Source of the DNA: Aureimonas sp. AU4
GTDB lineage: Bacteria > Pseudomonadota > Alphaproteobacteria > Rhizobiales > Rhizobiaceae
Length of the DNA: 64,000 nucleotides
Direction: 5' to 3'
Assembly: GCF_001463765.1 (NCBI RefSeq)
Contig: NZ_BBWK01000021.1
Location: 1 to 64,000 of the forward strand
Positions 8,422 through 38,084 of the stretch are shown here, one piece after another. A program made the translations under genes and the position numbers. The stretch's first letter is position 1; each line of letters begins with the position of its first letter. Below the pieces are notes generated by a model. That model saw only the letters and a program-made list of their open reading frames with translations, made no database searches and was not told the origin of the DNA.

Positions 8422-9138
8422 TCAGTGGGCGCCGTGCCGGCGCCGGCCGCGCTCGATCATCAGCATGTGGTCCTCCAGAGCGTTGCGGATCTCGTCCTCG
8501 TCGACAGGCGCCGCCATACGCTCCAGCATCCAGTCGCGGAACGCCTCGTGCTGGCGCACAACGGCGCGCAGGTCCTTGTCGCGGTAGCGCTCGAAGTTGA
8601 AGACGATCAGGACGTGCCGGGCGATCGTGTCCCACAGCGTTCCCACGATCGCGTTGCGGGCGGCGTTGCGGAACACGCGGTGGAAGTTGAGGTCCGCCTG
8701 GAGCGAGGCCCGCACGTCGCCGACGCGCGCCGCGCGCCGCATGTCGTCGATCGGTCCCTGGAGCATGGCGGGATCCTCCAGCCCGGCCGCCCAGTTGCCG
8801 ATCGCATCGCGCAGGAGAAGCGCCTCCACCTGGAGGCGCGCCTCCAGGATCTGCTGCGTGACCCGCGCGTCGAAGGTCGCGACCTTGTAGCCGCGATGGC
8901 TTCCCCCGATGACGATGCCCTGCGCATGAAGGACCTTCAACGCCTCGCGGATGGGAACGCGACTGACGCCGAGGCGCTCCGAGAACGAGGTCTCGATGAT
9001 CCGCTCGCCGGGCTTCAGGTTGTTGGTGGCGATGGCCTCCGCGATGGAGTCGGCGATGGAGTCGGCGAGCGCGAGGCGGAGCGGCTGGCGGAGCGTACCC
9101 GAAGGGGAGCTGTCGTCTTCCGGCTCGTGGTCTGCCAT
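8422..9138 (-). CDS. GntR-family regulator with FCD domain, probable regulator of the 9-38 kb island
   Basis: A 238-aa FadR/VanR-type regulator. The winged helix is at about residues 20-85 (LADSIADSIAEAIATNNLKP, then ETSFSERLGVSRVPIREALK). An all-helical FCD domain follows, with ligand and metal candidates D-x3-H (DLNFHRVF) and later His residues (VRQHEAF, EDHMLM). A short in-frame duplication encodes DSIADSIA. The ATG at 9138 has GGGAGAG upstream. A sigma-70-like promoter at 9186-9215 carries AATGTAGACGAT, a 9/12 match to the palindrome AATGTATACATT at the island's divergent promoter. Autoregulation and control of the island are therefore likely. The effector is unknown. Confidence 0.87.
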   Translation of the reverse strand: MADHEPEDDSSPSGTLRQPLRLALADSIADSIAEAIATNNLKPGERIIETSFSERLGVSRVPIREALKVLHAQGIVIGGSHRGYKVATFDARVTQQILEARLQVEALLLRDAIGNWAAGLEDPAMLQGPIDDMRRAARVGDVRASLQADLNFHRVFRNAARNAIVGTLWDTIARHVLIVFNFERYRDKDLRAVVRQHEAFRDWMLERMAAPVDEDEIRNALEDHMLMIERGRRRHGAH

Positions 9139-9185
9139 GCCATCTCTCCCGCGCCGGCGCGACGCACAATTCGCTATCGCACGAT

Positions 9186-9215
9186 GTTATAATGTAGACG
9201 ATATGGCTGCCTCAA
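9186..9215 (-). promoter_or_regulatory. Promoter of the FCD-GntR gene with embedded operator-like site
   Basis: Minus-strand -35 TTGAGG (9210-9215), 18-nt spacer and -10 TATAAC (9186-9191). AATGTAGACGAT at 9191-9202 starts at the edge of the -10 and resembles the sites at 22380 and 38073. Transcription would begin near 9179, giving a leader of about 40 nt. Confidence 0.5.
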
Positions 9216-9285
9216 GACACGGATGCTTGCGCGGCTGCCCGCCGGCGGCCGGCGCGCGACGCGCCGGTTGCGATGCCGCCACCTC

Positions 9286-10965
9286 TCAGCCGAGCGATGC
9301 CTCGCGCCGATCGACGCCGCCCTTCTGCGAGCGCGCGACGACGCGCACCCCCGCCCCAGAGCCGCTCGAGCGCACCAGCCATTCCACCGGCTTGGCGACG
9401 GCGCTCCACTGCTGGCCCCAGGGCGACCAGGGGTAGAGCCGCTCGTTGCGCCCGGCCAGATGCCCGAGTTCGACCCGGGCCGGGTTCATCACGACCTCTC
9501 CGCCCTCGACCTCCAGCGCGACCTCGACGGGTTTGGCCGCCTTGTTGGCGACCGCGACGTCGGAGAGGTTGGTCGGCAGGTAGCCGTGGTTGGCCACCAC
9601 GGCGCGTATCTTGAAGAGATCGGCGCCCATCGGCTCGACTTCCAGCGTGTCGACGCGAACGCGCGGGGCGGCTGCGGCATGACGCAGGTTGAACAGGGCG
9701 TTGGCGCGCGCGATGCCCTCCAGAAGCGCGGGCGGCGGGTTGCGGTAGCTCCAGATGTTGACCATGCCGCCGATCTCGATGGCGCCGAGCTGCGGATGCT
9801 CGAAGGGGCGCCAGTCACGCCAGGCGCGTTCGCCCATGTGCTCGCGCACGTAGGTGTAGACCTTCTGCTGTACCTCCTCGTTGCGCGGGTAGAGGTTGTA
9901 GTAGCCCACCTTCTCGACGCCCGCCTCGCGCTCGAGGTCCCAGAGTTCGGTGCCGAAGGAGATGATGCCCATCTCCTCGTAGGTCCAGTCCATCAGCCCG
10001 CCGCGCCGGACCTGGGTCTTGTCGGGCGTGAAGTCCTCGTAGATCGAGACCGTGGGGTAGCCGGTGAGCTCGGTGCCGACCTTGCCGATCTCCTTGTAGA
10101 GCGTGATGTCGCGCGCGCTCATGGCGCTGTCGGGCCTGGTCATCGAGGGGCGCATGATGATGCCCCCGTGCGTGTGGTAGGCGCACATGCCGCAGATGTT
10201 GGGATGGTCGAGGATGAAGCGCGCCATGGCGGCGGCTTCCGGCTCCGACAGCGGATGCTCGCCCGCGCCGTATTCCTGCGGCGACCAGTTGGTCGGAAAG
10301 TTGCGGTTCATGTTGCCGTCGAAGGGCTTCTCGATGGCGACGTTCGCGCCGTCGTAGTCGCGGATCGTGCCTTCGGGGTAGAGGCGGAAGTAATCGCCGC
10401 CCTCCTCGCCGGGCGCGCGCTGCACCATGATGTCGGGATTGCGGGCGCTCTTCTTCCACTCGCCTTTGGGATCGGGCACGCGCATCCAGACCAGGAAGCC
10501 GTCGCCGTCGACGTCTTCCGGAATGAGCCCGGCATGACGGTCGGCGCCCGGCATGAAGCGGCCGTTGCCGCACCAGTTGTAGTAGGGCGGCTGGAGCGAG
10601 AGCTCGGCGCCGTCCGGGTTGATGCGCGGCAGGACATAGAAGACCTGCGTGTCCAGAAGGCGCGTCGCCTCCTCGTCCCGGCCGTAGTTCGTCAGGAGGT
10701 GCCAGATGGCGTAGAGCGCCGTCGCGCTGGTCGCGTGCTCCTCGGCGTGGATCTGGGCGTCGATGTAGTAGCCGGGCTTTTCCGCGGCGGGCCCCGTGTT
10801 GGGGTTGGTCATCTCCATCACCCAGACCTCGCGCCCCCCGAACGAGCGCGCGAGCGAGCGCAGCGTGGCGAGCCTGGGGTAGCGGGCGGCGAGCGCCTGG
10901 AGGCAGGCGGTCATCTCGTCGTAGCTGTAGTAGCGGTCGAAGCGGATGTCGGGCTCAGCGGTCAT
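9286..10965 (-). CDS. M14-family zinc carboxypeptidase
   Basis: A 559-aa carboxypeptidase-A-like metallopeptidase, expected to remove a C-terminal residue from a peptide or acylated amino acid. Zinc ligands H73 and E76 are in QIHAEEHATS, the third His in CAYHTHGG, and the catalytic Glu in SFGTELWD. Arg/Asn residues for carboxylate binding are suggested by NMNRNFPTNW. Residues from about 440 look like a beta-sandwich accessory domain (VRVDTLEVEPMGADLFKI, then VAVANKAAKPVEVALEV). There is no signal peptide, so it acts in the cytoplasm on imported substrate. It is the last gene of the left arm, 19 nt after the DppF-like ATPase gene. It belongs functionally with the M32 carboxypeptidase of the opposite arm. 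Confidence 0.88.
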   Translation of the reverse strand: MTAEPDIRFDRYYSYDEMTACLQALAARYPRLATLRSLARSFGGREVWVMEMTNPNTGPAAEKPGYYIDAQIHAEEHATSATALYAIWHLLTNYGRDEEATRLLDTQVFYVLPRINPDGAELSLQPPYYNWCGNGRFMPGADRHAGLIPEDVDGDGFLVWMRVPDPKGEWKKSARNPDIMVQRAPGEEGGDYFRLYPEGTIRDYDGANVAIEKPFDGNMNRNFPTNWSPQEYGAGEHPLSEPEAAAMARFILDHPNICGMCAYHTHGGIIMRPSMTRPDSAMSARDITLYKEIGKVGTELTGYPTVSIYEDFTPDKTQVRRGGLMDWTYEEMGIISFGTELWDLEREAGVEKVGYYNLYPRNEEVQQKVYTYVREHMGERAWRDWRPFEHPQLGAIEIGGMVNIWSYRNPPPALLEGIARANALFNLRHAAAAPRVRVDTLEVEPMGADLFKIRAVVANHGYLPTNLSDVAVANKAAKPVEVALEVEGGEVVMNPARVELGHLAGRNERLYPWSPWGQQWSAVAKPVEWLVRSSGSGAGVRVVARSQKGGVDRREASLG

Positions 10966-10984
10966 GAAGGGTCTCGAAAAAAGG

Positions 10985-13007
<2,023 letters not shown>

Positions 13008-13011
<4 letters not shown>

Positions 13012-14408
13012 CGGAAGGCTCCCTGATGATCTGGCGTCAGATACTGGCCGCTCGCGGGAGCGGCGCATAGCTCGCCGGCGGCATAGACCGGCCGCCCGGC
13101 GAGGAAGGTCGCCGCGACCCGCCCCCGGAAGCGCCGGTCGGCATAGAGGTGCGCGACGTCGCGCGCCTTGGTGCGCATCGCGCCGAGCGGGAAGCGCGTC
13201 TCGCCCGCAAGGTCCACCAGCGTCAGGTCGGCATCGAAGCCCGGCTCGACGCGGCCCTTCGTGGGCAGGGCGAAGCGCCGGGCCGGCTCGGCACTCAAGA
13301 GCCGCGCGACGTCGGGAAGCGAGAGCCGCCCCTCGGCCACAGCGTCGAGCAGCGTCGGCACGAGGATTTCGAGGCCCGGCGTGCCGGGCGGGGCGCTTGT
13401 GAAATCGCCGTTCGCCCGTTCCTTGTCGGCGAGGCTGAAGGCGGCGTGATCGGTGGTGACGAAGCCGATTGTTCCGTCCGCCAACGCCTCCCACAGCGCC
13501 GCGCGGTCCGAGGGGCCACGGATCGGCGGGTTGACGCGGCCGAAGACGCCGGCCCGCGCGACGTCCTCCCCGCCCGTGAAGAGGAGGTAGTGCGGGCAGG
13601 TCTCGGCGGTGAAGTCCGAGGTCCCGCGAAAGGCGCGCAGGACGCGCACCGTCGCGGCCGAGGTCACGTGGGCGATGTGGAGCTTCGCCCCCGCCTCCAT
13701 GTTCATCGCGAGCAGCCGGGCGACCGCGACGCTCTCGCACAGCGCGGGGCGCATCCGCTCGTGGGTCGCGGCACTTTGCGGGTCGAGCCCCTGCGCGGCC
13801 GCCGCGAAGTGATCGAGAAGCTGCGCGCTCTCGGCGTGGACGATCACCGGCAGTCCGGTGCGCGCGCAGGCCCGCAGCGCCTCGAACTCCTCGCCCTCGT
13901 CCGGCCGGGCCAGCCCCGCGAACTCGGTCTCGCGGCCCGCCGGCATGGCGGTGGTGAAGATCTTGAAGGCGATCGCGCCGGCCTTCCGGATCGCTTCGAT
14001 GCTCGCGTCGTCCAGGCTGCCGGGTGCGGCGATCATCGCGAAATGGGCGAGCGCCCGTCCTTGGAAATGCTCGGCGCGCACGCGTATCCGCTCGCCGGAA
14101 TTGCAGCAGGGCTGCGTGATCGGCATCTCGAACAGCGCCGTGATGCCGCCCGCAATGGCGGCCGCCGTCTCGCTCTCCACCGTGCCGCGCTCGGGAAAGG
14201 CCGGCGCGCGCACGTGGACGTGGATGTCGATCGCGCCCGGCAGGACGTGGAGGCCGGCGGCGTCGAAGGTCTCGCGCGCGTCGGCCGCCTCGCCCGGCGC
14301 AAGGAGCAGGGCGACGCGCCCGTCCCGGATCGCGATGTCGGCCGCCCGCACGCCCGCCTCGCCGACGACCTCCGCCCCCCGGACGACGATGTCGAACGGC
14401 CCGCTCAA
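13008..14408 (-). CDS. Cyclic amidohydrolase of the dihydroorotase/allantoinase/hydantoinase group
   Basis: A 466-aa amidohydrolase expected to open a cyclic ureide or imide ring. Binuclear metal ligands are visible: HVH in [11 protein letters not shown], a lysine for carbamylation in [10 protein letters not shown], His in VIVHAES, His in LHIAHVTS, and Asp in VTTDHAAFS. The [21 protein letters not shown] block is allantoinase-like. No ATG exists near the conserved N-terminus ([13 protein letters not shown]); the start is read as TTG at 14408, overlapping the preceding stop as TTGA. Between the 476-aa unknown protein and the DppD ATPase, it probably acts on the imported compound or an intermediate. 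Allantoin itself is possible, but a PuuE-type protein is also present in the other arm. Confidence 0.88.
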
Positions 14409-15835
14409 TGGAGACCGAGCTCGCGCAGGGCGGCGGCGACGCCGTCGAGATGGGTGAGGTGCATCGAGGCGTAGTTGGGCGCCAGCACCACGCCGTGCCC
14501 GCCCGCGCGATAGGTCGCGAGAACCGAGCGGTAGGCGATGTCGGGCGTGCATTGGGCGGTTTCCGCGCGCGTGCGCGGCGCGTCGACGCCGAGCCCCATA
14601 TAGACCTTGGCCCGGCCCTCCACCCCGCGCAACGCATCGGCGCACTGCCCGAAGACGTAGGTGTCGGGGTCCATTCCGGTCTCGACGAGCTTGTCGAACG
14701 GCGCCTCCTTCAACCCGAGCAGCCGGTACAGGACGGCGGTCGCCTCGCCCGGCTCGAAGTCGCGCAAGATCGTCTTGCGGAAGAAGCCGAGCTCCTTGGC
14801 GAACACCTCGCCTGCCTGGTGCTGGTAGGTGATGGGCTTCACCCAGTCGGCGTAGAGCGTCTGCTCGGCCCAAGGCCACTGCGCCTTGCGGAAGATGTTG
14901 AAGTGGTTGCGGTTCCAGACGTTGAGCCCGAACGGGAGGGTTGGGCGGCACCATTTCACGAGGCCGTAGAGTTCGCGGTCGAGGTCCTTGTTGCGCTCCA
15001 GCCAGAAGCGCTCCCAGATCAGGGCTTCGGGGTGGGCGAGGAGCGTGCGCAGGAAGGTGACGAAGGTGCCGTCGGCAAAGCTCTTGCCGGCCGCCGCTTC
15101 CTGGCAGAAGTCGTAGAGGCGCAGGAGCGCCTCGCGGCAGCGTTCCGCGTCGACGCCACGCTCCGCCGCCTCGCGCCGCGAATGGGTGGAGAAGTCGCCC
15201 GGCGCCCCGCCCTGGATCAGCGTGTCGAGCGGCGAGTTGCGCTCGTTGCACCACATCAGGCCGTCGATCGGGTAGCGGCGCACCTGGTCCTCCACCATCG
15301 AGAGGATCCAGTTGCGGTAGCCGGGATGGCTGGTGGAGGGCTCGGGCCCGAGCCGGCCGAAGAGGTCGACCTCCATCGCCTGCGGCAGGTTCGGAATGTC
15401 GACCGTGCCGGCCGAGCCGTGGCCGGAATACTTGAAGAAGGGCTCCATCAGCTCGACGAAGACCTTCATGCCGCGCCGATGCGCCTCGGGCAGCACCATG
15501 GCGAGGATGTCGCGTCCCTCGAACTCGGGATCGCGCGTGCGGTAGTCCGCCATGAACGTGTCGCGATAATAGGCGGGATCGGGCTGGAAATAGGCCCCGC
15601 CCCGCAGCGCGTAGGGCTCGGGGATGCCGTGGTCGGGCCAGCCGTCCAGCGCGTGGCTGATCGAGCGGCCGGTCTTGAGGCCGAGCCAGGACACGGTGCC
15701 CAGCATCAGGACGTTGACGCCGACGCGGGTCTGCAGCGTGTCGAGCACCGCATCCACGCCCTCGTCGAGGAACGAGATGGGGCTGACCTGGATGCCGACG
15801 AACTTCTCGGCCGGATCGGGACGAGGCGCGCTCAT
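14405..15835 (-). CDS. Conserved protein of unknown function, probable TIM-barrel (glycoside-hydrolase-like)
   Basis: A 476-aa cytoplasmic protein that I do not recognise. The pattern suggests a beta/alpha barrel: an early strand [15 protein letters not shown], then [26 protein letters not shown], and [19 protein letters not shown] at about residue 200, where glycosidases often place an acid residue (here E and N in CNERN). Later come [26 protein letters not shown], and [12 protein letters not shown] near the C-terminus. These resemble clan-A glycoside hydrolases or DUF families annotated as such. There is no signal peptide. It overlaps its neighbours by 4 nt on both sides, so it is co-translated with the aminotransferase and cyclic amidohydrolase. 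A hydrolase or lyase acting on the island's substrate is inferred only from context. Confidence 0.75.
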
Positions 15836-17013
15836 GCGGCCTGCGCCTTCAGGCCCTGAATGAAGCCTTCCATACGCGCGATCGCCTCGCGGATGCGCTC
15901 GATCGGCTGGAGAAACGAGACGCGGACGTAGCGGTCGCTCTCGTCGCCGAAGAGCGCGCCCGGAAACAGCAGCACCCCCGTCTCGCGCAGCAGGCGCTCG
16001 CAGAAGACCGGGGCCGACAGCCCCGTCGAGGAGACGTTGGTGTAGAGGTAGAAGGCCCCGCCGGGATGGCCGAACGAGAGGCCCATGCGCCGGAACGCCT
16101 CGGTCAGCGCCGCGCGCCGCTCGGCATAGGCCGCGATCATCGCCTCGATCGGCTCGGACGGACCTTGAAGGGCCGCGAGCGCGGCGTGCTGCGAGATCGT
16201 GCAGGCGTTGATCGAGAGCGTGTGGCGCGGCTCGGTCATCTTCGCGACGAAGTCGGCGGGCGCCGCGAGATAGCCGACGCGCCAGCCCGTCATGGCATAG
16301 GTCTTGGAGAAGCCGTTCAGCGTGACCGTGCGCTCCTTCATTCCGGGCAGCGTCGCGATCGAGAGGTGTTCGTTCCCCTCGTAGATGATCTGAGCGTAGA
16401 TCTCGTCGGAGACGACGATGATGTCGTGCCGCTGCGCGATCTCGGCGATCTGCCGGATGGCGTCCGGCGGCGTCACGGCGCCTGTCGGGTTGTTGGGCGA
16501 GACCAGCACGAACAGGCGGGTGCGCGGCGTGATGCGCCGCTCGATCTCGGCGGGGTCGAGCGCGAAGTCGTTCTCCTCCACGGTCGGCACCGGCACGGGC
16601 ACGCCGCCCGCCAGCCGCACCGCCGTGTCGTAGGTCGTGAAGCGCGGCGAGGTGACGAGAACCTCGTCGCCCGGTGAGACGAGGCCGAGCATCAGGAGCG
16701 TGATGGACTCCTGGACGCCCGCCGTCACCACGATCTCGTCGGCCCCATAGCGGAGCCCGTAGAGGTCGGCCAGGTGCTCGGCGATCGCCGCGCGCAGCGC
16801 CGGCATCCCGGTGGGCGCGGTGTAGTGGTGCTGATTGTCGCGGATCGCCCGGATCGCGGCCTCCGCGATATGAGGCGGGGTGTGGAAGTCGGGGTCGCCG
16901 CGGCCCATGGCGATGACGTCGGGCTGCGTCGCCGCGATGGCGAGCATCTTGGTGCGGAAGGACTCGTCCTCCTCGCGGATGCGGGGGGCGATGCGGTCGA
17001 AGAGCGTGCTCAT
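15832..17013 (-). CDS. PLP-dependent aminotransferase (class I/II, fold type I)
   Basis: A 393-aa aspartate-aminotransferase-like enzyme. The PLP lysine is in LNGFSKTYAMTGWRVGYLA; other family marks are MGRGDPDFHTPPHI near the N-terminus, NNPTGAVT for the PLP-ring asparagine, SDEIYAQI for the Asp that contacts the pyridine nitrogen, and a C-terminal carboxylate-binding arginine (YVRVSFLQP). It would deaminate an amino acid released from the imported substrate. A clear paralogue occurs in the right arm (24034-25224), so the system has two aminotransferases. It sits 5 nt after the prolidase-type amidohydrolase gene and overlaps the 476-aa unknown gene. Confidence 0.9.
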   Translation of the reverse strand: MSTLFDRIAPRIREEDESFRTKMLAIAATQPDVIAMGRGDPDFHTPPHIAEAAIRAIRDNQHHYTAPTGMPALRAAIAEHLADLYGLRYGADEIVVTAGVQESITLLMLGLVSPGDEVLVTSPRFTTYDTAVRLAGGVPVPVPTVEENDFALDPAEIERRITPRTRLFVLVSPNNPTGAVTPPDAIRQIAEIAQRHDIIVVSDEIYAQIIYEGNEHLSIATLPGMKERTVTLNGFSKTYAMTGWRVGYLAAPADFVAKMTEPRHTLSINACTISQHAALAALQGPSEPIEAMIAAYAERRAALTEAFRRMGLSFGHPGGAFYLYTNVSSTGLSAPVFCERLLRETGVLLFPGALFGDESDRYVRVSFLQPIERIREAIARMEGFIQGLKAQAA

Positions 17014-17018
17014 GGCGT

Positions 17019-18251: not shown

Positions 18252-18290
18252 GGGACCGGGCCTTCGGGTTCGGATAGGACGAGATGGACG

Positions 18291-20539: not shown

Positions 20540-20545
20540 GGCGGG

Positions 20546-25224: not shown

Positions 25225-25238
25225 AGAGGGTTCCCAAC

Positions 25239-27662: not shown

Positions 27663-28153
27663 TGCGCCCTGTTGCCTGCGCGCCGCTGACCGAAGACGCC
27701 TTCCGGCCCTTCGGCACCCTGATCGCGCCGCCCGGCGCGGTGGGCGAACGGCGTCGCTTCGACGCGCTTCTCCACCCGGCGCCGTCGGAGCCTGGTCTTG
27801 CCCCCGTCTTCCACACCAACCTCGTCGCGCCCGTCACCCTGCCGCACGAGATCGCGGCTCTGGAACGCCACCCGCACGCGGCTCAAGGCTTCGTGCCGCT
27901 GGATGCCGGGCGCTTCCTCGTCGTCGTGGCGCCCTCGACCGCTAGCGGCGAACCGGACCTGTCCGCCGTTCGCTCCTTCGTCGCGCCGGGCGGCGTCGGC
28001 GTCGTCTACGGGCGCGGCGTCTGGCATGCCGGCGCGCGCGCCCTCGACCGCGCGGCGAGCTTCGCGGTCCTCATGTGGCGCGGCCTTCCCGACGACGACG
28101 TGTTCCTGTCCGTTCCCCCCATCCGCATCGAACCGGAGCCCGCCTTCGCATGA
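27662..28153 (+). CDS. allA: Ureidoglycolate lyase family protein (AllA)
   Basis: A 163-aa cupin-like protein of the ureidoglycolate lyase family, which splits ureidoglycolate into glyoxylate and urea. It matches E. coli AllA in LTEDAFRPFGTLI, IAALERHPHAAQGFVPLD, FLVVVAP, DLSAVRSFVAPGGVGVVY and GVWHAGARAL. The ATG at 27662 overlaps the preceding stop. Together with PuuE it would form the ends of an allantoin pathway, but the middle step (AllC or allantoicase) is absent in this window. It may therefore cleave a related hemiaminal. It overlaps the epimerase gene by 4 nt. Confidence 0.88.
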   Translation: MRPVACAPLTEDAFRPFGTLIAPPGAVGERRRFDALLHPAPSEPGLAPVFHTNLVAPVTLPHEIAALERHPHAAQGFVPLDAGRFLVVVAPSTASGEPDLSAVRSFVAPGGVGVVYGRGVWHAGARALDRAASFAVLMWRGLPDDDVFLSVPPIRIEPEPAFA

Positions 28154-30122: not shown

Positions 30123-30138
30123 GAAAGGACGCCCGACC

Positions 30139-31698
30139 ATGACATCCAGCCGTCTCCTCCTGGCAGCGCTTGCCGCAGGCGCCCTCGCCGCTCCGCCGGG
30201 CGCGCACGCCGCGCCGGCCGACGACACGATCGTCGTCGGCATCTCGGCCGACGCCTCGACCTTCGACCCCGATGCGATCGCCTCGCGCGACAACTCCAAC
30301 ATCGCCAAGCACATCTTCGGAACGCTCTACGAGGTCGATCCCGAGGGGAAGATCGTGCCGGACCTCGCCGAGTCCTACACGGAGGCCGCCGACGGCCTGT
30401 CCTACACCTACAAGCTGAAGCCGGGTCTCACCTGCGAGGACGGCGAGGCTCTGACGGCCGAGGACGCGGCCTATTCCTTCAACCGCGCCGCCGACCCGAA
30501 GAACGCCTTCACCGGCAACACGCCGGGCTTCGTCTTCACCTCGATCGACTTCAAGAGCGCCGAGGCCGTCTCCGACAGCGAGGTGAAGGTCAATATCGGA
30601 ACGAAGAATCCGGTGTCCTTCGGTCTGATCGCCGAGGTCTTCATCCACTGCAAGGACAGCTACGAGAAGATGAGCCTGGCCGACGCGGCGGCCAAGCCGG
30701 TCGCCTCGGGTCCCTATCGCCTGGTGAGCTGGGATCGCGGCAGTCAGGTGAAGCTGGAGCGCTGGAAGCCCGACGGCGCGAAGTTCAAGACCATCACCTG
30801 GCGCATCATTCCCGAGGCCTCAACGCGTTCGGCCGAGTTGATCGCCGGCAACGTCGACATCATCACCAACGTCGCGCCCGACCAGATCGGCGCGATCGAC
30901 GCCTCGGGCGCGGCCGAGGTCAAGAAGGTCCAGGGCACGCGCCGCATCTATGCTGGCTTCAACCAGCGCGCCGACTTCGCCTCGACGCCGGGCGGCGCCG
31001 CCGTGCAGAAGCCCGAGGTGCGCCGGGCCCTGCAATACGCGATCGACGTGCCGGCGATCTGCAAGCAGCTCCTGAACTTCGAGTGCACGCGCGCCACCGG
31101 CCTCGTGAACCCGCCCAATGACAACAAGTCGCTGGCGCCATACCCCTACGACCCCGACACGGCCGAGAAGATGCTGGACGAGGCCGGCTATCCCAGAGGG
31201 GCCGACGGCACACGCTTCGAGCTGAAGTTCCAGGCGCCGCGCGGCCGTTACCTCAACGACGCCAACGTCGCGCTCGCGATCGGCCAGTATCTCAGCGACA
31301 TCGGCGTCAAGACCGACGTCGAGCTCATGGAATGGGCCTCGGTCTACGTGCCGCTGATCTCCAAGCACGATGCGGGCCCGCTGTTCCTGCTCGGCTCGGG
31401 CGGCGGCACCTGGAGCCCGCTCTACGACATGACCGACCTCGCGACGCCGGAATCGGGCACGAACTACACGAACTGGTCGGATCCGCGCTGGTACTCGGGC
31501 TGGCCCGAGATCGCCGCCGCCAAGACCGACGAGGAGCGGCGCCCGATCATCGATCGCATGCTCAAGGTCTTCTACGACGACGGGCCCTGGCTGCTTCTCT
31601 ACTTCCAGCCCGACTTCTACGGCGTCTCCAAGCGCGTCGACTTCACGCCGCGCCGCGACGAGAAGGTCTACCTCTTCGACGTCGGCCTCGCGAAGTAG
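30139..31698 (+). CDS. Peptide-type ABC transporter substrate-binding protein (family 5), copy 1
   Basis: A 519-aa DppA/OppA-class binding protein with a Sec signal ending near AHA-A (residue 25). The mature protein begins DDTIVVGISADASTFDPDAI and has the family blocks IAKHIFGTLYEVDPEG, LKPGLTCEDGEALTAEDAAY, RAADPKNAFTGN, RRALQYAIDVPAICKQLL, and PYPYDPDTAEKMLDEAGYPR. It delivers the island's substrate to DppBC (33369, 34357), presumably powered by DppDF (10985, 11986). The ATG at 30139 has AAAGGA upstream. A paralogue follows directly. Confidence 0.92.
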   Translation: MTSSRLLLAALAAGALAAPPGAHAAPADDTIVVGISADASTFDPDAIASRDNSNIAKHIFGTLYEVDPEGKIVPDLAESYTEAADGLSYTYKLKPGLTCEDGEALTAEDAAYSFNRAADPKNAFTGNTPGFVFTSIDFKSAEAVSDSEVKVNIGTKNPVSFGLIAEVFIHCKDSYEKMSLADAAAKPVASGPYRLVSWDRGSQVKLERWKPDGAKFKTITWRIIPEASTRSAELIAGNVDIITNVAPDQIGAIDASGAAEVKKVQGTRRIYAGFNQRADFASTPGGAAVQKPEVRRALQYAIDVPAICKQLLNFECTRATGLVNPPNDNKSLAPYPYDPDTAEKMLDEAGYPRGADGTRFELKFQAPRGRYLNDANVALAIGQYLSDIGVKTDVELMEWASVYVPLISKHDAGPLFLLGSGGGTWSPLYDMTDLATPESGTNYTNWSDPRWYSGWPEIAAAKTDEERRPIIDRMLKVFYDDGPWLLLYFQPDFYGVSKRVDFTPRRDEKVYLFDVGLAK

Positions 31699-31708
31699 CC
31701 GTCCCCTG

Positions 31709-31738
31709 CGCGCGGGGGATGGGGAGGTCCCCCGCGCG
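31709..31738 (+). repeat. Strong hairpin between the tandem binding-protein genes
   Basis: CGCGCGGGGGA, an 8-nt loop, TCCCCCGCGCG: an 11-bp perfect stem starting 10 nt after the stop of the first binding protein. No T-run follows. It probably stabilises the upstream message, as intercistronic hairpins do in other binding-protein operons; partial attenuation is the alternative. Confidence 0.55.
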
Positions 31739-31786
31739 TCCCGACCAGCAGACGTCTCGCCCCCTTCTGACCAAGGATTGACGACC

Positions 31787-33334
31787 GTGCGCAGCCTTCT
31801 TCCCGCATCCCTTCTGATCCTCCCCCTCCTCGCGGCGTCCGCCCTCGCGGCTCCGCCCGACGACACGCTGGTGGTCGGCCTGTCGGCCGACGCCTCCTCC
31901 TTCGATCCCGCGCAGATCGCCTCGCGCGACAACGCCAACATCGCCAAGCACATCTTCGCGACCCTGTTCACCGTGAACTTCGAGGGCGAGATCAAGCCCT
32001 ATCTCGCCGAGTCCACCGAGGTCAGCGCCGACGGGCGCGCCTACACGTTCACGATCAAGCCCGGCCTCACCTGCGAGGACGGGGAACCGCTGACGGCCGA
32101 CGACGTCGCCTATTCGTTCAACCGTCCGGCCGACAAGTCCAAGAACTTCACCGGCAACTCCGCCGGCTTCGTCTACACGACGCTCGGCTTCCAGTCGGCC
32201 GAGGCGCTGGACGAGCGCCGCGTGCGCATCAACCTCGCCGCCAAGACGACGCTCGCGCTCGGCATGATGGCGCAGGTCTACGTCCATTGCCGCGACAGCT
32301 ACGAGAAGATGACCCTCGACGAGGCGGCGATCCATCCCGTCGCCTCGGGCTCCTACCGACTCGCGCGCTGGGATCGCGGCTCGCAGATCGTCCTGGAGAA
32401 GCGCCAGGAGCCCGCGAACTTCCGCCAGATCGTCTGGCGCGTGATCCCCGAGGCCTCGACGCGCACGGCCGAACTCATCGCCGGCAATGTCGACCTCATC
32501 ACCAATGTCGCGCCCGACCAGATCGGCGCGATCGACGGCTCGGGCACGGCGAGCGTCGCCAAGGTCGACGGCACGCGGCGCATGCAGGTCGGCTTCAACC
32601 TGTCGGAGGCGGCGAAAAGCCTGCCGGGCGGCAAGGAGATCCAGGACCCCAAGGTCCGCTGGGCCCTGCAATACGCCGTGGACGTGCCGGGCATCTGCAC
32701 GCAGCTTCTCGGCACCGAATGCCGCCGCGCGACGAGCCTCGTGAACCCGCCGAACGACGACCCCTCGCTCAAGCCCGTGCCCTACGATCCCGAGAAGGCC
32801 GAGAAGCTCCTCGACGAGGCCGGCTATCCCAGAGGCCCCGACGGCGTACGCTTCCGCACCACGCTCCAGGGTCCGCGCGGGCGCTATCTCAACGACGCCA
32901 ACGTCGTGCAGGCCATCGGCCAGTACCTCACCGACATCGGCGTCGAGACCGATGTCGAGCTCCTGGAATGGGCCTCGGTCTACTCGCCCCTGCTGCGCGC
33001 CAAGAAGATGGCGCCGCTCTTCTTCCTCGGCCAGGGCGGCGTCACGTGGAACCCGCTCTACGACATGAGCCTTTTCGCGACCCCGGACGCCACGACCAAC
33101 TACCAGAGCTGGAACGACCCGCGCTGGTACGCCGACTGGAAGGTCGCGCTCGAGGCCGATACGGTGGAGGCGGCACGCCCGGCCATCAACCGCATGCTCA
33201 AGCTCTTCTACGAGGAGGGACCCTGGCTGCAGCTCTACTTCCAGCCCGACTTCTACGGCGTGTCGCACCGCATCAGCTGGCAGCCGCGGCGCGACGAGGA
33301 GATCGACCTCTTCGAGGCGAGGCTCGCCCCGTGA
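31787..33334 (+). CDS. Peptide-type ABC transporter substrate-binding protein (family 5), copy 2
   Basis: A 515-aa paralogue of the preceding protein, similar along its whole length (SRDNANIAKHIF, IKPGLTCEDGEPLTADDVAY, SYEKMTLDEAA, EASTRTAELIAGNVDLITN, RGRYLNDANVVQAIGQYL). The signal peptide MRSLLPASLLILPLLAASALA is present. Start GTG at 31787 is preferred over TTG at 31778 because AAGGA lies 9 nt before it and the signal begins there. Both copies share the rare arginine codon AGA in GYPRG, suggesting fairly recent duplication. Having two binding proteins with one permease pair would broaden the range of ligands. Confidence 0.92.
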   Translation: MRSLLPASLLILPLLAASALAAPPDDTLVVGLSADASSFDPAQIASRDNANIAKHIFATLFTVNFEGEIKPYLAESTEVSADGRAYTFTIKPGLTCEDGEPLTADDVAYSFNRPADKSKNFTGNSAGFVYTTLGFQSAEALDERRVRINLAAKTTLALGMMAQVYVHCRDSYEKMTLDEAAIHPVASGSYRLARWDRGSQIVLEKRQEPANFRQIVWRVIPEASTRTAELIAGNVDLITNVAPDQIGAIDGSGTASVAKVDGTRRMQVGFNLSEAAKSLPGGKEIQDPKVRWALQYAVDVPGICTQLLGTECRRATSLVNPPNDDPSLKPVPYDPEKAEKLLDEAGYPRGPDGVRFRTTLQGPRGRYLNDANVVQAIGQYLTDIGVETDVELLEWASVYSPLLRAKKMAPLFFLGQGGVTWNPLYDMSLFATPDATTNYQSWNDPRWYADWKVALEADTVEAARPAINRMLKLFYEEGPWLQLYFQPDFYGVSHRISWQPRRDEEIDLFEARLAP

Positions 33335-33368
33335 GGGCCGGCCGCGTCCGGCAGGGGGACAGCGCCTG

Positions 33369-34343
33369 ATGGGGACCTTCCTCGTCCGCCGCCTCCTCCA
33401 GAGCCTGATCGTGATCGTGGGCGTCACCGCGATCACCTTCGTGGCGCTCCAGATCGGGGGCGACCCGACCTACCTCTACGTCTCGGAGCGGGCGAGCGAG
33501 GCGGAGATCCAGCAGACCCGCGCCGCGCTCGGCTTCGACCGCCCGCTGCCCGAGCAGTACCTGTCCTTCGTCGGCCGCCTCGTGCAGGGCGACTTCGGCA
33601 CCTCGCTCGCCTTCAAGCGACCGGCGATCGAGCCGGTGCTGGAAGCCCTGCCCGCCACGATCGAGCTGACGCTCTTCGCCATGATCTTCGCGATCGGGCT
33701 CGCCATCCCGCTCGGCGTCTTCGCCGCGCTGAACCGTGGCACCTCGGTGGACGGCTCGATCATGACGCTCGGCATGCTCGGCCAGTCCATCCCCTCCTTC
33801 TGGCTCGGCATCATGATGATCATGATCCTCGGCCTCCAGCTGCGCTGGTTCCCGATCTCGGGCCACGTGCCCTTCCTGATGCCGCTTCTGGAAGGGCATG
33901 TCGTCGAGGCCTTCCGGCAGCTGCCGCAGGCGCTCTACTATCTCGTCATGCCGGGCGTGGCGGTGGGCTTCTATTCGCTCTCGCGCAACGCCCGGCTCGT
34001 GCGCTCCTCCATGCTGGAGGTGCTGGGCCAGGACTTCGTGCGCACGGCCCGATCCAAGGGCCTCTCGGAATGGCGCGTCGTCGTCCACCACGCCCTGCGC
34101 AACGCCTGGCTGCCGGTGGTCACCATGGTGGGCCTCGAGTTCGGCTTTCTTCTCGGCGGCGTCGTCGTGGTGGAGATGGTCTTCTCCTGGCCCGGCATCG
34201 GGCGCCTCATCTTCAACGCCATCAACCAGCGCGACATTCCCGTGGTCCAGGCGGCCGTGATCGTGCTGGCCGTGGTCTTCATCGCGCTGAACCTCGTGGT
34301 GGACCTCGTCTACGCGCGCATCGACCCGCGTGTGAAACTGTGA
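33369..34343 (+). CDS. Peptide-type ABC transporter permease, DppB-like
   Basis: A 324-aa permease with six spans. It starts MGTFLVRRLLQSLIVIVGVT (typical DppB N-terminus with a first span) and contains GFDRPLPEQYLSFVGRLVQGDFGTS. The EAA loop is ...LGQDFVRTARSKGLSEWRVVVHHALRNAWLP, and the C-terminus is DLVYARIDPRVKL. It pairs with the DppC-like gene 13 nt downstream. The ATPases expected to energise it are encoded in the opposite arm. Confidence 0.93.
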   Translation: MGTFLVRRLLQSLIVIVGVTAITFVALQIGGDPTYLYVSERASEAEIQQTRAALGFDRPLPEQYLSFVGRLVQGDFGTSLAFKRPAIEPVLEALPATIELTLFAMIFAIGLAIPLGVFAALNRGTSVDGSIMTLGMLGQSIPSFWLGIMMIMILGLQLRWFPISGHVPFLMPLLEGHVVEAFRQLPQALYYLVMPGVAVGFYSLSRNARLVRSSMLEVLGQDFVRTARSKGLSEWRVVVHHALRNAWLPVVTMVGLEFGFLLGGVVVVEMVFSWPGIGRLIFNAINQRDIPVVQAAVIVLAVVFIALNLVVDLVYARIDPRVKL

Positions 34344-34356
34344 AGGGGTTCCAGTC

Positions 34357-35301
34357 ATGACCGTCGAGGCCCTCCCCCCGGCGACCGTCGAGGCGCAGGC
34401 GCCCGCGCCCTCGCTCCTGCCGCCGCCCACCCGCCGGCAGGCGATGCGGCGCGCGGTGCGCTCCATGGTCGGCGCCCGCTGGCCGCTGGTCGCCGTCGCG
34501 ATCCTCGCCGTGGTGGTCTTCGCCGCCCTGTTCGGGCCGCAGGTCTCGCCCTTCGATCCGAACCGGCAGAACATCATGTTGCGCCTCGCCGACCCGATGA
34601 CCGAGGCGCGGCGCGGCGGGACCTATCTCCTGGGCACCGACGGGCTCGGCCGGGACGTCCTGTCGCGTCTTCTCTACGGCGCGCGGGTCTCGCTCCTGGT
34701 CGGCATCTGCGCGATCCTGGTGGGCGGCACGATCGGCACCGTCGCGGGGCTGCTCGCCGGCTATTTCGGCGGCTGGGTGGACGACGTCGTGATGCGGCTC
34801 GGCGACATCCAGCTCGCCTTTCCCTTCATTCTCCTCGCCATCATGTTCCTGGTGGTGCTGGGGCCGGGCGTCGTCAACATCATCATCGTGCTCGGTATCG
34901 GACAATGGGTGACCTATGCCCGCATCGTGCGGGCGCAGACGCTCTCCTTGCGCGAGAAGGAATATGTCGAGGCGGCGCGCGCGCTCGGCGACCGCACGGT
35001 CTCGGTGATCTTCCGCACGATCCTGCCCAACATCGTCGCCCCGCTCACCGTGATCGCCTCGTTCAACGTGGCGAGCGTCATCCTGTCGGAGGCCTCGCTC
35101 TCGTTTCTCGGGCTCGGCGTGCCGCCGTCCGTTCCGACCTGGGGCTCGATGCTGGCCGAGAGCCGCGACCAGCTTCTCGCCAACAAGTGGTGGCTCGCCT
35201 TCTATCCCGGCATGGCGATCGTCCTGACCGTCCTGTCCTTCAACATCCTGGGCGACTGGTTGCGGGACTTCCTCGACCCCCGCCTCAAGACCACCGGCTG
35301 A
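34357..35301 (+). CDS. Peptide-type ABC transporter permease, DppC-like
   Basis: A 314-aa permease. It has a proline/alanine-rich cytoplasmic N-terminus (about residues 1-30), a first span at WPLVAVAILAVVVFAALF, the periplasmic signature YLLGTDGLGRDVLSRLLYGAR, the EAA loop LREKEYVEAARALGDRTVSVIFRTILPN, and a C-terminal FNILGDWLRDFLDPRLK, all typical of DppC/OppC. It completes the membrane part of the island's importer. The next gene, a Gfo/Idh oxidoreductase, follows after 11 nt in the same operon. Confidence 0.93.
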   Translation: MTVEALPPATVEAQAPAPSLLPPPTRRQAMRRAVRSMVGARWPLVAVAILAVVVFAALFGPQVSPFDPNRQNIMLRLADPMTEARRGGTYLLGTDGLGRDVLSRLLYGARVSLLVGICAILVGGTIGTVAGLLAGYFGGWVDDVVMRLGDIQLAFPFILLAIMFLVVLGPGVVNIIIVLGIGQWVTYARIVRAQTLSLREKEYVEAARALGDRTVSVIFRTILPNIVAPLTVIASFNVASVILSEASLSFLGLGVPPSVPTWGSMLAESRDQLLANKWWLAFYPGMAIVLTVLSFNILGDWLRDFLDPRLKTTG

Positions 35302-35312
35302 CGGGAGACCCC

Positions 35313-36389
35313 ATGCGCATCGGCATCATCGGCGCGAGCTTTGCACGCGCCGCCTATCTTCCCGCGCTCCGGCACGTCGAGGGCGCCGAGGTCGTCGCGC
35401 TCGCATCGAGCCGGCTGGAGAGCGCGACGGAGGCCGCCCGGGCCTTCGCGATCCCCCGCGCGACCGACGACTGGCGCGCCATGCTGGCCGAGGAGCGGCT
35501 GGACCTCGCGCTCATCGCCACGCCCGCCGACCTCCACGCGCCGATGACACTGGAGGCGCTGGCGCGCGGCGCCCACGTCCTGTGCGAGAAGCCGACGGCG
35601 CTGGACGCGCAAGAGGCCGAAGCCATGCTGGCGGCGCAGCGGGCGGCCGGGCGGCTCGGCATGATCGACCACGAGCTGCGCTTCAATCCCAACCGGCGCC
35701 ACCTCGCCCGCCTCATCCGGGAGGGCGAGCTCGGCGAGATCCGCCACGTCAACATAGCCAACATCGGTTCCTCCTGGGCTGATCCCGCAAGCCGGCCGAA
35801 GGGCGACTGGTGGTCGCTGAAGAGCCACGGCGGCGGGCGCCTCGGCGCCAACGGTTCGCATCAGGTCGACCTCCTGCGCTGGTGGCTCGGGCCCGTGCGC
35901 TCGGTTGTCGGCCAGGCGCTGACGCTCGTTCCCGATCGCGTCGACAAGCGGACCGGCGAGGCGTGGCGGGCCGATGCCGACGACCTCTCTCACCTCACGC
36001 TGGAGATGGCGAACGGCGCGCTCGCGCAGGTCTTCATGAGCGGCGTCGCGGCGTCCAACATGGGCAACCGGACCGAGGTCTTCGGCTCGCGCGGAACGGC
36101 GACGCTCGACAACGAGACCGAACGCCTTCTGATCTCTCGCGGCGGCGGCCCGTTCCAGGACGAGACGCAGGACGACCCCAACGCGGGACTGGCAGGGCTC
36201 AACAAAGGCATCTGGAACGTGTCGGTGGTGGCGGCGCTGCGCGAGCTGACGGCGGCGATCCGCGAGGGCCGCCCGTTGCGCGAGGGCGCCACCTTCGCGG
36301 ACGGCGTGGCGAACCAGCGCGTGCTCGACGCCGTCCACCGCTCCACGGTCGAGCGGCGATGGATCGATTTGGCCGAGGAGCCCCGATGA
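35313..36389 (+). CDS. Gfo/Idh/MocA-family oxidoreductase, second copy
   Basis: A 358-aa NAD(P)-dependent oxidoreductase. It has N-terminal MRIGIIGASFARAAYLPAL, LIATPADLHAPMTLEAL, the catalytic HVLCEKPTALD, and a C-terminal domain with GGGRLGANGSHQVDLLRWWLG (His near the active site). It is only distantly similar to the 29058 protein, so the two are not a recent duplication. The ATG at 35313 is preceded by GGGAGA. The stop overlaps the SDR start. It probably handles a polyol or sugar-derived part of the substrate. Confidence 0.88.
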   Translation: MRIGIIGASFARAAYLPALRHVEGAEVVALASSRLESATEAARAFAIPRATDDWRAMLAEERLDLALIATPADLHAPMTLEALARGAHVLCEKPTALDAQEAEAMLAAQRAAGRLGMIDHELRFNPNRRHLARLIREGELGEIRHVNIANIGSSWADPASRPKGDWWSLKSHGGGRLGANGSHQVDLLRWWLGPVRSVVGQALTLVPDRVDKRTGEAWRADADDLSHLTLEMANGALAQVFMSGVAASNMGNRTEVFGSRGTATLDNETERLLISRGGGPFQDETQDDPNAGLAGLNKGIWNVSVVAALRELTAAIREGRPLREGATFADGVANQRVLDAVHRSTVERRWIDLAEEPR

Positions 36390-37120
36390 GCGCGACCCGA
36401 CACGAGCCGCAGACCGTTCTCCTGACGGGCGCCGCGCAGGGCCTGGGCGCCGCGATCGCGCGCGACCTGGCCGAAGCGGGCGCGAGGCTCCTGCTGATCG
36501 ACCGCGACGCCGAGGGTCTCGACGCGGTCGCGCGCGACTGCGGGTCCGGAGCACGCTTCGCGGTGGCCGACCTGTCGGATGCCGAGAGCACGCTCCGTGC
36601 CCTGCGCGAGTTCGGGAATGCGGTCGGCGAGACCGACACGCTGATCCACAACGCCGCGATCCTCAACCCGGTCGCCTTCGAGCGGGAAACGCTGGAGGGC
36701 TTCCGGCGCACGCTCGACGTCGGGCTCCAGGCCGCCTTTCTCCTGACGCAGGCCGTATGGCCGGGCATGGCGCGGCGCGGCGGCGGGATGCTGGTCTATG
36801 TCTCGTCGCGCTCGGGCATCATGGGTTTTGGCGACGAGGCCGCCTATTGCGCGGCCAAGCACGGGTTGGAAGGCTTCTCGAAGTCGATGGCCGAGGCCGG
36901 CGCGCCGCACGGCATCGCCTCGGTCACGATCACGCCCGGCATGCCGATGCACACCCCCATGTCGGAGCGCAACTACGCGCCCGAGATGAAAGGGCGCTGG
37001 GTGGAGCCGGCGCGCCTCGCGCCGGCCTTCCGCCACCTCTCGGCCGAGCGTCCGCAGGCGCTCAGCGGGCAGAGGCTCGACGCCTGGGCCCTGTCGCAGG
37101 AGCTCGCCGGCGCGGCTTAG
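36386..37120 (+). CDS. Short-chain dehydrogenase/reductase (SDR)
   Basis: A 244-aa classical SDR. It has TGAAQGLGAAIARDLAEAG (nucleotide binding) at about residue 14, acidic LLIDRDAEG (NAD preference), HNAAILNP (NAG-like), the active-site Ser in LVYVSSRSGIMG, and YCAAKHG for the Tyr-Lys pair. It follows the Gfo/Idh gene with a 4-nt overlap and is the last gene of the right arm. Its stop TAG and the stop TAA of the convergent aldolase gene share two bases (TTAG, 37117-37120), so no room exists for a separate terminator. Confidence 0.88.
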   Translation: MSATRHEPQTVLLTGAAQGLGAAIARDLAEAGARLLLIDRDAEGLDAVARDCGSGARFAVADLSDAESTLRALREFGNAVGETDTLIHNAAILNPVAFERETLEGFRRTLDVGLQAAFLLTQAVWPGMARRGGGMLVYVSSRSGIMGFGDEAAYCAAKHGLEGFSKSMAEAGAPHGIASVTITPGMPMHTPMSERNYAPEMKGRWVEPARLAPAFRHLSAERPQALSGQRLDAWALSQELAGAA

Positions 37121-38052
37121 GCGCCGATCTCGGCGAGGCGCCGCTCCTGCGCGGCGAGCAGGCGCTCGACGTCGGCGACGTCGGCAGCAGAGAGCGCCGG
37201 GCTAGGCGCGCGCAGCTTGGCCGAGCCGATCACGCCGCGCTTGGCGAGAACGTACTTGCGCACGGCCAGACCCAGACCTTGCTGCTGCTCGTAGCGCGCG
37301 AGCGGCAGGTAGGCGGCAAACAGCCGGTGCGCCGCCTCGCGCTCGCCGGACGCGAACAGGCGGCAGACGCCGACCATCATCTCCGGGAAGCAGAAGCCGG
37401 TCATCGCGCCGTCCGCGCCGCGCTCCATCTCCTCGGGCAGGAACAGGCCGCCATTGCCGCACAGGATCGAGATGCGGCGCATGCGTCCCGCATCGGACGC
37501 GGCGCGAAGGGCGCCGATCTTGGCCAGACCCGGCCAGTCCTCGTGCTTCAGCATCACGCAAGTCGGCACGTCGCGCACGATGCGCTCGATGACGCCGGGC
37601 GAGATCTGGACGTTGGTGGTGAGCGGATAGTCCTGCAGCACGAAGGGCGTGTCGCCCAGCGCCTCGCCCACAGAGCGGTAGAAACCGTGGATCTGGTCGT
37701 CGGTGCGCAGCGTCCAGGGCGGCAGCACCATGACGCCGGCCGCGCCCGCGCCCATCACCGCGTCGGCCAGCTCGCGCATCGGGGCGAGACCCGGTGCCGA
37801 GACGCCGACAACGACCGGCAGGCGACCCTGGAGCCGGTGCAGCACCCGCTCCACCACCTCGCGCGATTCGGCCGCCGTGAGCTTGGGCGCCTCGCCGAGC
37901 TGCCCCAGGACCGTCAGCCCGTCGACCCCGGCCTCCTCGTAGAAGTCCACCATGCGGTCGATCGAGGCGATGTCCACCGCGCCGGACTCGGTGAACGGCG
38001 TCACCGCGATCACGTAGACGCCCTTGGCCTGCTCGTTCAATGCTGCGGTCAT
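37117..38052 (-). CDS. Dihydrodipicolinate synthase (DapA)/N-acetylneuraminate lyase family aldolase
   Basis: A 311-aa (beta/alpha)8 class-I aldolase or hydro-lyase. It has VIAVTPFTESGAVDIASIDR, GLTVLGQLGEAPKLTAAES in place of the usual GTTGE loop, the catalytic tyrosine in FVLQDYPLTTN, and the Schiff-base lysine in CVMLKHEDWPG. The GQLGE variation means it is neither a housekeeping DapA nor a standard NanA. A pyruvate- or keto-acid-releasing lyase for the island's intermediate is plausible. The ATG at 38052 is preceded by GGAGGG. An operator-like TGTATACA lies 23-30 nt upstream, matching the island's divergent promoter, so it is probably coregulated. Confidence 0.88.
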   Translation of the reverse strand: MTAALNEQAKGVYVIAVTPFTESGAVDIASIDRMVDFYEEAGVDGLTVLGQLGEAPKLTAAESREVVERVLHRLQGRLPVVVGVSAPGLAPMRELADAVMGAGAAGVMVLPPWTLRTDDQIHGFYRSVGEALGDTPFVLQDYPLTTNVQISPGVIERIVRDVPTCVMLKHEDWPGLAKIGALRAASDAGRMRRISILCGNGGLFLPEEMERGADGAMTGFCFPEMMVGVCRLFASGEREAAHRLFAAYLPLARYEQQQGLGLAVRKYVLAKRGVIGSAKLRAPSPALSAADVADVERLLAAQERRLAEIGA

Positions 38053-38072
38053 TCAGCCCTCCGCAAGTGATA

Positions 38073-38084
38073 AATGTATACAAG
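38073..38084. promoter_or_regulatory. Operator-like site before the aldolase gene
   Basis: AATGTATACAAG contains a perfect 8-bp palindrome (TGTATACA) and matches 10 of 12 positions of the AATGTATACATT operator at 22380-22391. It lies just upstream of the aldolase ribosome-binding site, where a repressor would block initiation. The same FCD-GntR protein is inferred to bind. Confidence 0.55.

Follow-up and report, generated by a model that had tools for sequence, protein, structure and literature searches.

A divergent gene cluster of Aureimonas sp. AU4 with a split importer and one rare putative operator, a candidate catabolic regulon for a nitrogen-rich, peptide-like compound

Organization of the cluster

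A block of 27 genes of apparently catabolic function lies at positions 8422-38052 of a 64-kb window (the whole stretch of DNA analyzed) from Aureimonas sp. AU4, which is the start of its contig in a genome of 4.49 Mb on 139 contigs and has a GC content of 71%. According to gene calls and Pfam matches, the block consists of two back-to-back operons and a DapA-type gene. The left arm is a minus-strand operon (8422-22284) running from DUF4438b, which starts at 22284, to the regulatory gene GntR at 8422, the right arm is a plus-strand operon (22505-37120) running from M32 through SDR, and the DapA-type gene, again on the minus strand, comes next (37117-38052). Neighboring genes of the block meet at 26 junctions, of which 11 are 4-bp overlaps and one is a 20-bp overlap. 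A first-pass annotation made from the sequence alone had listed the enzyme and importer families in a divergent arrangement and had seen the parts of one ATP-binding cassette (ABC) importer divided between the arms, and both statements are borne out by the gene positions and Pfam matches below.

8422-9138, minus: GntR/FCD regulator, likely the cluster repressor (PF00392, PF07729)
9286-10965, minus: M14 carboxypeptidase-type protein (PF00246; nearest solved relatives carboxypeptidase T)
10985-11989, minus: ABC importer ATPase, DppF-type (PF00005, PF08352)
11986-13011, minus: ABC importer ATPase, DppD-type (PF00005, PF08352)
13008-14408, minus: AmHyd1, allantoinase/hydantoinase-type amidohydrolase (PF01979; below the NCBIfam cut-offs for allantoinase, ErtD and dihydroorotase)
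14405-15835, minus: 476-amino-acid GHL10-like protein, possible glycosidase-like barrel (narrowly below the PF02638 gathering score, 27.7 versus 27.9 bits)
15832-17013, minus: aminotransferase AT1, class I/II (PF00155)
17019-18251, minus: AmHyd2, Xaa-Pro dipeptidase/Arg-carboxypeptidase-type amidohydrolase (PF01979; solved relatives include 3mtw and 4c5y)
18291-19460, minus: M24-fold hydrolase, three of five metal positions altered in alignments (PF00557)
19457-20539, minus: Ldh_2-type dehydrogenase (PF02615)
20546-21427, minus: DUF4438 protein a (PF14505, PF20999)
21424-22284, minus: DUF4438 protein b (PF14505, PF20999; relatives 3dcl, 3n99)
22380-22391, no strand: palindrome AATGTATACATT between the arms, putative operator (WTGTATACAW site at a conserved position)
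22505-24037, plus: M32 carboxypeptidase (PF02074)
24034-25224, plus: aminotransferase AT2, class I/II (PF00155)
25239-25718, plus: VOC protein, possible epimerase (PF13669; below the TIGR03081 cut-off)
25699-26715, plus: AstE/AspA-type deacylase (PF24827)
26745-27662, plus: PuuE paralog, divergent (TIGR03212, 362.7 bits versus a cut-off of 424.6)
27659-28153, plus: AllA paralog, ureidoglycolate lyase family (PF04115; below NCBIfam cut-offs)
28150-29061, plus: NAD-dependent epimerase-type protein (PF01370)
29058-30122, plus: Gfo/Idh 1 (PF01408)
30139-31698, plus: binding protein SBP1 (PF00496; hydrophobic N-terminus)
31787-33334, plus: binding protein SBP2 (PF00496; hydrophobic N-terminus)
33369-34343, plus: permease, DppB-type (PF00528, PF19300)
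34357-35301, plus: permease, DppC-type (PF00528, PF12911)
35313-36389, plus: Gfo/Idh 2 (PF01408, PF22725)
36386-37120, plus: SDR dehydrogenase (PF00106)
37117-38052, minus: DapA-type lyase (PF00701; other DapA-type genes are present in related clusters)
38073-38084, no strand: palindrome-like AATGTATACAAG, 20 bp before the DapA-type start codon (second WTGTATACAW site; same place in Aureimonas jatrophae)

Of the named relatives returned, Aureimonas jatrophae is the nearest, with 97% identity in DUF4438b and 98% over six concatenated proteins. The GntR protein is 92% identical there and 60-62% identical in two Rhizobiales clusters.

Conservation of the two arms

A contig scan with DUF4438b returned 267 relatives, the best 80 of which were examined as loci. 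At least 9 kb of sequence flanks DUF4438b on either side in 52 of these 80, among which 12 Chloroflexota loci were set apart by their record titles, and the 40 others are mostly from Hyphomicrobiales and Rhodobacterales, with five from Gemmatimonadota, one from an Acidobacteriota metagenome-assembled genome (MAG) and one from the actinomycete Enemella. In all 40, DUF4438a is present, and no fewer than five genes of the left arm lie to one side and no fewer than five of the right arm to the opposite side. Gene order was compared for 16 enzyme genes (leaving out GntR, the transporter genes, M14, Gfo/Idh 2, SDR, and DapA), and 31 of the 40 loci share a single order, such that the arrangement cannot be put down to chance. 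PuuE, AllA, M32, AT1, AT2, and Ldh_2 are each present in every one of the 40 loci, and AmHyd1 and AstE in 35 each. The set is reduced or rearranged in the 12 Chloroflexota loci, where Ldh_2 and AT1 are found in all, VOC, the binding protein, DppB, and DppC in 11, and AmHyd1 in five.

The two arms are also found together within the order of the source organism. Among 297 genomes, orthologs of the GHL10-like protein, taken as the left-arm marker, occur at 64% identity or more in three (the organism itself, G089, and G183), and the same three have orthologs of AstE, the right-arm marker, at 67% identity or more. Two more genomes have a 35% relative of the GHL10-like protein, and 72 further genomes have weaker matches to AstE (at most 36% identity among the matches listed). 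The cluster of G183 is rearranged on a single contig, while G089 is a fragmented MAG of 84% completeness in which one contig carries AT2-VOC-AstE-PuuE and another PuuE-SBP-DppBC-GHL10-AmHyd2-AT1.

DUF4438 was found in one of 240 Alphaproteobacteria drawn, the source genome itself, so the cluster is patchy in its distribution. In a quick tree of six concatenated proteins (38 rows holding all six), Enemella groups with Rhodobacterales, and Gemmatimonadota and Acidobacteriota with other Alphaproteobacteria. This mixing suggests transfer of the entire cluster, of which mixing alone is no proof, and misbinning is possible for the loci from Acidobacteriota and Trueperaceae, each of which is a single MAG contig.

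Fifteen clusters were read further out, beyond their loci, which brought additional genes to light: six of them have an M20 dipeptidase-type gene, five an ABC exporter pair, and three a RidA gene. One such exporter-type pair (PF00664 and PF00005; L144, 10951-14603) lies within the cluster, with related pairs in four more clusters, which is odd for a purely catabolic set.

The split importer

The importer has the gene complement of a Dpp/Opp-type system, with two SBP_bac_5 binding proteins (PF00496), two permeases (PF00528) and two oligo_HPY ATPases (PF00005 with PF08352), and differs from such systems in that its genes lie in two divergent operons, the ATPases being confined to the left arm and the binding proteins and permeases to the right. 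As to the solute carried, putatively a peptide, the sole solved relative at E≤1e-30 is YliB (1uqw). Relatives of the window's binding protein, DppB, DppC, DppD, and DppF are all present in 12 of the 15 clusters read further out, and in four of these 12 (Pseudooceanicola antarcticus L146, Alexandriicola marinus L147, Roseobacter sp. L150, and Enemella evansiae L152) DppB and DppC directly adjoin DppD and DppF. Because these parts lie side by side elsewhere, the importer genes split across the arms of the window probably form one transporter. The other three clusters are that of the Acidobacteriota, where the contig ends ahead of any permease, and two of Chloroflexota. On a simple scale, strongly hydrophobic N-termini are restricted to the two binding proteins and DppB among the proteins of the cluster, and the enzymes therefore look cytosolic, the compound being probably imported before it is dismantled.

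A putative operator shared by both arms and dapA

A palindrome lies between the two arms. Most taxa have it as TTGTCGACAA or something close to this, and the window has it as ATGTATACAT. Its strict pattern was found in 37 of 50 divergent regions, compared with 16 matches in 905,890 bases elsewhere in these loci, a count that is partly circular as the motif was derived from the regions counted. Independent support hence comes from a scan of the whole 4.49-Mb genome, in which WTGTATACAW occurs in two places only, one at the center of the cluster and the other 20 bp ahead of the DapA-type gene. As controls, the reversed pattern has no matches in the genome, and the 12-base form is absent from shuffles of the window. 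The palindrome occupies both places in A. jatrophae as well, and a copy lies ahead of the GntR-SBP genes in L146, L150, and L152. This distribution suggests a single regulon made up of dapA and the two arms, and the palindrome is the presumptive binding site of the GntR protein encoded at 8422-9138.

A looser operator-like pattern is present in 49 of 51 divergent regions, preceded by CTTGAC in 32 and followed by GTCAAG in 34, and both boxes flank it in 17 of the 51 versus one of 2,550 shuffled sequences. These boxes may be -35 elements, belonging to two promoters that face each other across a single operator. Three Rhizobium/Neorhizobium loci (L015, L016, and L018) have an overlapping site, TTGTATACAGTCGACAATC, in their divergent regions, in which TTGTATACA and GTCGACAA overlap, and two GntR types were found in the cluster of R. 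straminoryzae, the one of these read further out, as if two regulators share one site.

Two unrelated operons might also stand back to back by chance, each serving another nutrient, and the smaller, rearranged sets of Chloroflexota and the one genome that carries two Dpp-type sets would suit this. In that genome (rearranged cluster L050/L097/L160, one contig), however, the genes of both arms stay together despite the second Dpp-type set, and arms that occur independently, each with a full transporter, were looked for in these comparisons and not found. Independent arms were rejected on the joint occurrence in 40 of 40 loci, the same three of 297 genomes carrying both markers and the genome-wide distribution of WTGTATACAW, to which the adjoining importer parts of other genomes can be added, and such a coincidence is extremely improbable. 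The neighborhood comparison called for by the first-pass annotation thus found the arms together in every adequately flanked locus outside Chloroflexota, and there is strong support for its proposal that the two arms make up one system.

The PuuE/AllA pair

Two adjacent genes of the right arm belong to families of the allantoin branch of purine catabolism (PuuE, AllA, AllB, and AllD), which the cluster resembles in its overlapping PuuE/AllA-family genes, an allantoinase-type amidohydrolase and Ldh_2. On these family matches PuuE, AllA, AmHyd1, and Ldh_2 might degrade allantoin. The proteins all fall below the family cut-offs, however: besides PuuE, the AllA, AllB, and AllD equivalogs give 86.1, 279.5, and 153.4 bits against cut-offs of 230, 357.85, and 496.2. 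Moreover, the source genome has a canonical purine operon elsewhere (L162, G000:C43) with AllA, allantoicase and a PuuE-UraD-type fusion of 478 amino acids, while the cluster has no UraD domain and no allantoicase or allantoate hydrolase was detected by Pfam among its 27 proteins. All genes of the canonical operon except AllA, PuuE, and allantoicase were read by eye, and HIU hydrolase and xanthine dehydrogenase appear to be among them.

The same separation is seen in other genomes. In 11 of 15 genomes searched, a canonical PuuE (461-528 bits, above the cut-off of 424.6) lies within ∼3.5 kb of a high-scoring AllA (173-204 bits), in addition to the cluster pair, for which scores in these genomes are 335-374 bits for PuuE and 60-105 bits for AllA. 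The cluster pair occurs without a canonical pair in two genomes (Gemmatimonadota G743 and Acidobacteriota G537), the two Chloroflexota among the 15 gave no AllA and no PuuE match above 20.7 bits, and some of the 15 have further PuuE- or AllA-type genes. When 11 canonical and 45 cluster PuuE proteins are compared, each group is fixed (at least 90%) for a residue of its own at 12 positions of the domain they share, and many other positions are fixed alike. The AllA groups differ too, with conserved His and Glu residues kept. By these comparisons the cluster pair is a lineage separate from the purine pair of the genome, and the allantoin pathway, rejected on this divergence and the canonical operon, is a very improbable role for the cluster. 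The separate lineage fits action on a cyclic ureide other than allantoin.

A hydantoinase-type amidohydrolase coupled to a deacylase

The metal-ligand motifs of hydantoinase-type enzymes, which we take to be HxH, K, H, H, and D, are conserved over 47 AmHyd1 sequences, although the D-hydantoinase equivalog TIGR02033 is missed (209.4 versus 393.25 bits). In the 52 flanked loci, AmHyd1 is accompanied by AstE in 34, by an ArgE/DapE-type M20 protein in four and by both in one (39 with a partner), and neither AmHyd1 nor a partner was seen in 11. This coupling would suit ring opening followed by deacylation, with VOC as a possible epimerase. A cyclic amidohydrolase coupled to a deacylase recalls hydantoin utilization by hydantoinase and N-carbamoylase, from which the window cluster differs in that no carbamoylase-family (TIGR01879) gene was seen there and AstE or the M20 protein takes its place. 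In the distant cluster L130, three genes stand side by side: a VOC gene, a truncated gene of the carbamoylase family and an allantoinase-type gene that exceeds the TIGR03178 cut-off. AmHyd1 also belongs to the superfamily of ErtD, the hydantoin-5-propionate amidohydrolase of ergothioneine utilization (NCBIfam names), but its 272.7 bits lie below the ErtD cut-off of 650.

Peptidase-type, M24-fold, and DUF4438 proteins

The five metal ligands of an M24 metallopeptidase are presumably D, D, H, E, and E. Compared with prolidase 4zng at these positions, the M24-fold protein shows D→G, D→E, and E→I and keeps one His and one Glu, and thus lacks the five-ligand set, the D→E change being conservative. 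The first two changes hold over 49 orthologs, and E→I over 11 aligned rows, three of which have a Glu one position further. Prolidases are its closest solved relatives, with weaker matches to creatinase and the ectoine hydrolase DoeA. It is probably not an ordinary peptidase and may be a C-N hydrolase that works without the usual metal pair.

Ectoine catabolic clusters (EutD/DoeA and EutE/DoeB) likewise combine an M24-fold hydrolase, an AstE-type deacylase, an aminotransferase and an importer, and the cluster might by analogy degrade an ectoine-like cyclic amidine, the M24-fold protein opening the ring and AstE deacylating the product. Both proteins match the ectoine models (TIGR02993 and TIGR02994), DoeA and creatinase are among the solved relatives, and a passage of PMC5924519 gives the order of steps as EutD, EutE, and transaminase. 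However, the equivalog scores are far too low (49.3 versus 613 bits for EutD and 80.9 versus 402.7 for EutE), prolidases are closer to the M24-fold protein than is DoeA, and the ectoine route lacks most of the many enzymes encoded here, which makes an ectoine-like substrate unlikely.

Catabolism of peptidoglycan is another use to which such a set could be put, with M14, M20, and the GHL10-like protein cutting imported cell-wall peptides or glycopeptides and aminotransferase and DapA-type steps dismantling diaminopimelate. The SBP_bac_5 importer, M14, M32, and the DapA-type lyase are in keeping with this, as are the M20 dipeptidase-type gene of several related clusters and the match of AT1, far below cut-off, to LL-diaminopimelate aminotransferase models. 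Muropeptides are nevertheless rather unlikely, as no amidase, etherase, beta-N-acetylglucosaminidase or LD-carboxypeptidase family was found among the 27 proteins and the hydantoinase-type, PuuE, and AllA genes would be left without a role. No good solved relative was found for the GHL10-like protein itself; relatives of 32-35% identity occur in two Rhizobiales genomes (L098 and L099) without DUF4438 and without other cluster genes nearby.

The two DUF4438 proteins, with 163.8 and 150.8 bits, are well above the PF14505 gathering score of 24.9. Other contexts of this family were read by eye (L122-L130): lone DUF4438 genes of Chloroflexota near apparent molybdenum-hydroxylase (xanthine/CO dehydrogenase-type) subunits (L124, L125, and L126), and pairs with just two or three Gfo/Idh-type genes and an SDR nearby (L128 and L129), possibly a minimal version.

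The proposed route and its substrate

The reading favored here, with a little over even confidence, is that of one dedicated 27-gene catabolic regulon whose importer takes up a peptide-like compound that cytosolic enzymes dismantle. The compound is probably rich in nitrogen and is best pictured as bearing a hydantoin or ureide; this and the order of steps are deduced from gene families, and what the route degrades is a reasonable inference rather than a result. After uptake by the Dpp/Opp-type importer assembled from both arms, M14, M32, and AmHyd2 would trim amide bonds, AmHyd1 would open a hydantoin-like ring, perhaps after epimerization by VOC, and AstE, or the M20 enzyme in other genomes, would strip an N-carbamoyl or N-acyl group. 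The PuuE and AllA paralogs would open the cyclic ureide and then split a ureido-hydroxyacid, the M24-fold protein would hydrolyze a non-peptide C-N bond, and the aminotransferases, Ldh_2, SDR, Gfo/Idh, epimerase and DapA-type lyase would channel the skeleton into central metabolism. The DUF4438 pair probably performs a core step, and the GntR protein would control both arms and dapA through one kind of operator.

Several observations weigh against this reading. The strict palindrome is missing from 13 of the 50 divergent regions, and close DppD and DppF relatives were not seen in the two Chloroflexota clusters in the stretches read further out. The coupling of AmHyd1 to a deacylase has two exceptions (AmHyd1 alone in L050, where AstE lies just beyond the locus, and AstE alone in L029), and the 11 loci with neither AmHyd1 nor a partner are four of Gemmatimonadota and seven of Chloroflexota and, so clustered, represent few independent events. 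PuuE, AllA, M32, and AmHyd2 were each found in none of the 12 Chloroflexota clusters within 10 kb, so those steps are not universal; in L055 with L153/L154, AmHyd2, DapA-type, M32, and SDR genes lie further out. DUF4438 was not found in G089, an incomplete MAG that carries genes of both arms, and lone DUF4438 genes without the cluster occur in six of the ten Chloroflexota genomes that have the family. Finally, a sugar part cannot be proved from sugar-type families as broad as these. To the first-pass annotation the set looked like the whole of a route for one imported compound combining peptide, ureide and sugar-like parts. This is unproven: the ureide part has gained support from the AmHyd1 coupling and the PuuE/AllA divergence, the sugar part rests on those broad families, and the M24-fold protein is probably no ordinary peptidase. 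Its further idea, a nucleoside-peptide antibiotic as substrate, is improbable, such compounds being judged too special for the taxonomic spread of the cluster.

A more specific and quite improbable possibility is that this is a route, the first complete bacterial one, for dicarbonyl-modified (glycated) arginine peptides or an equivalent imidazolone or hydantoin conjugate. If so, modified peptides would be imported and trimmed by the carboxypeptidases, AmHyd1 and the PuuE paralog would open the ring, and the AllA paralog would free a glyoxylate-type fragment from guanidine or urea, a release step matched by AllA-type chemistry since this splits a urea-aldehyde adduct. The Gfo/Idh, epimerase, SDR, and DapA-type enzymes would process sugar-derived remnants, and the DUF4438 pair would represent new chemistry.

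In agreement with the first-pass annotation, which knew of no described pathway with this gene set, no description of the set or its pathway was found in the open PubMed Central papers searched, and the apparent novelty of the pathway depends on this null result. So large a gene set, with its order conserved from Hyphomicrobiales and Rhodobacterales to Gemmatimonadota and an actinomycete, probably acts on a compound common in nature, whose identification would uncover a new nutrient pathway. Three kinds of protein gain a physiological setting from the cluster, namely DUF4438, a family with solved structures and no known function, a branch of PuuE and AllA that stands apart from purine degradation, and an M24-fold protein whose metal positions are altered. 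With a single importer and a single rare putative operator to work from, the substrate can be tested for directly.

Neighboring genes

To the right of the cluster, the window encodes a predicted protein of 537 amino acids (38984-40597) with no Pfam match at E 0.01. To the left, at 2867-8397, lie genes for a GntR/UTRA regulator, a NanE epimerase, a ROK kinase and a sugar-type ABC importer that look like a system for amino-sugar (ManNAc/sialic acid) uptake. They were left out of the cluster, as the A. jatrophae stretch beyond GntR, compared by matches to cluster genes without family annotation, shows no cluster gene except a 31% ATPase match. Still further left, at 246-2626, an Amidohydro_3 gene stands beside a gene for a PnrA-like (Bmp) binding protein.

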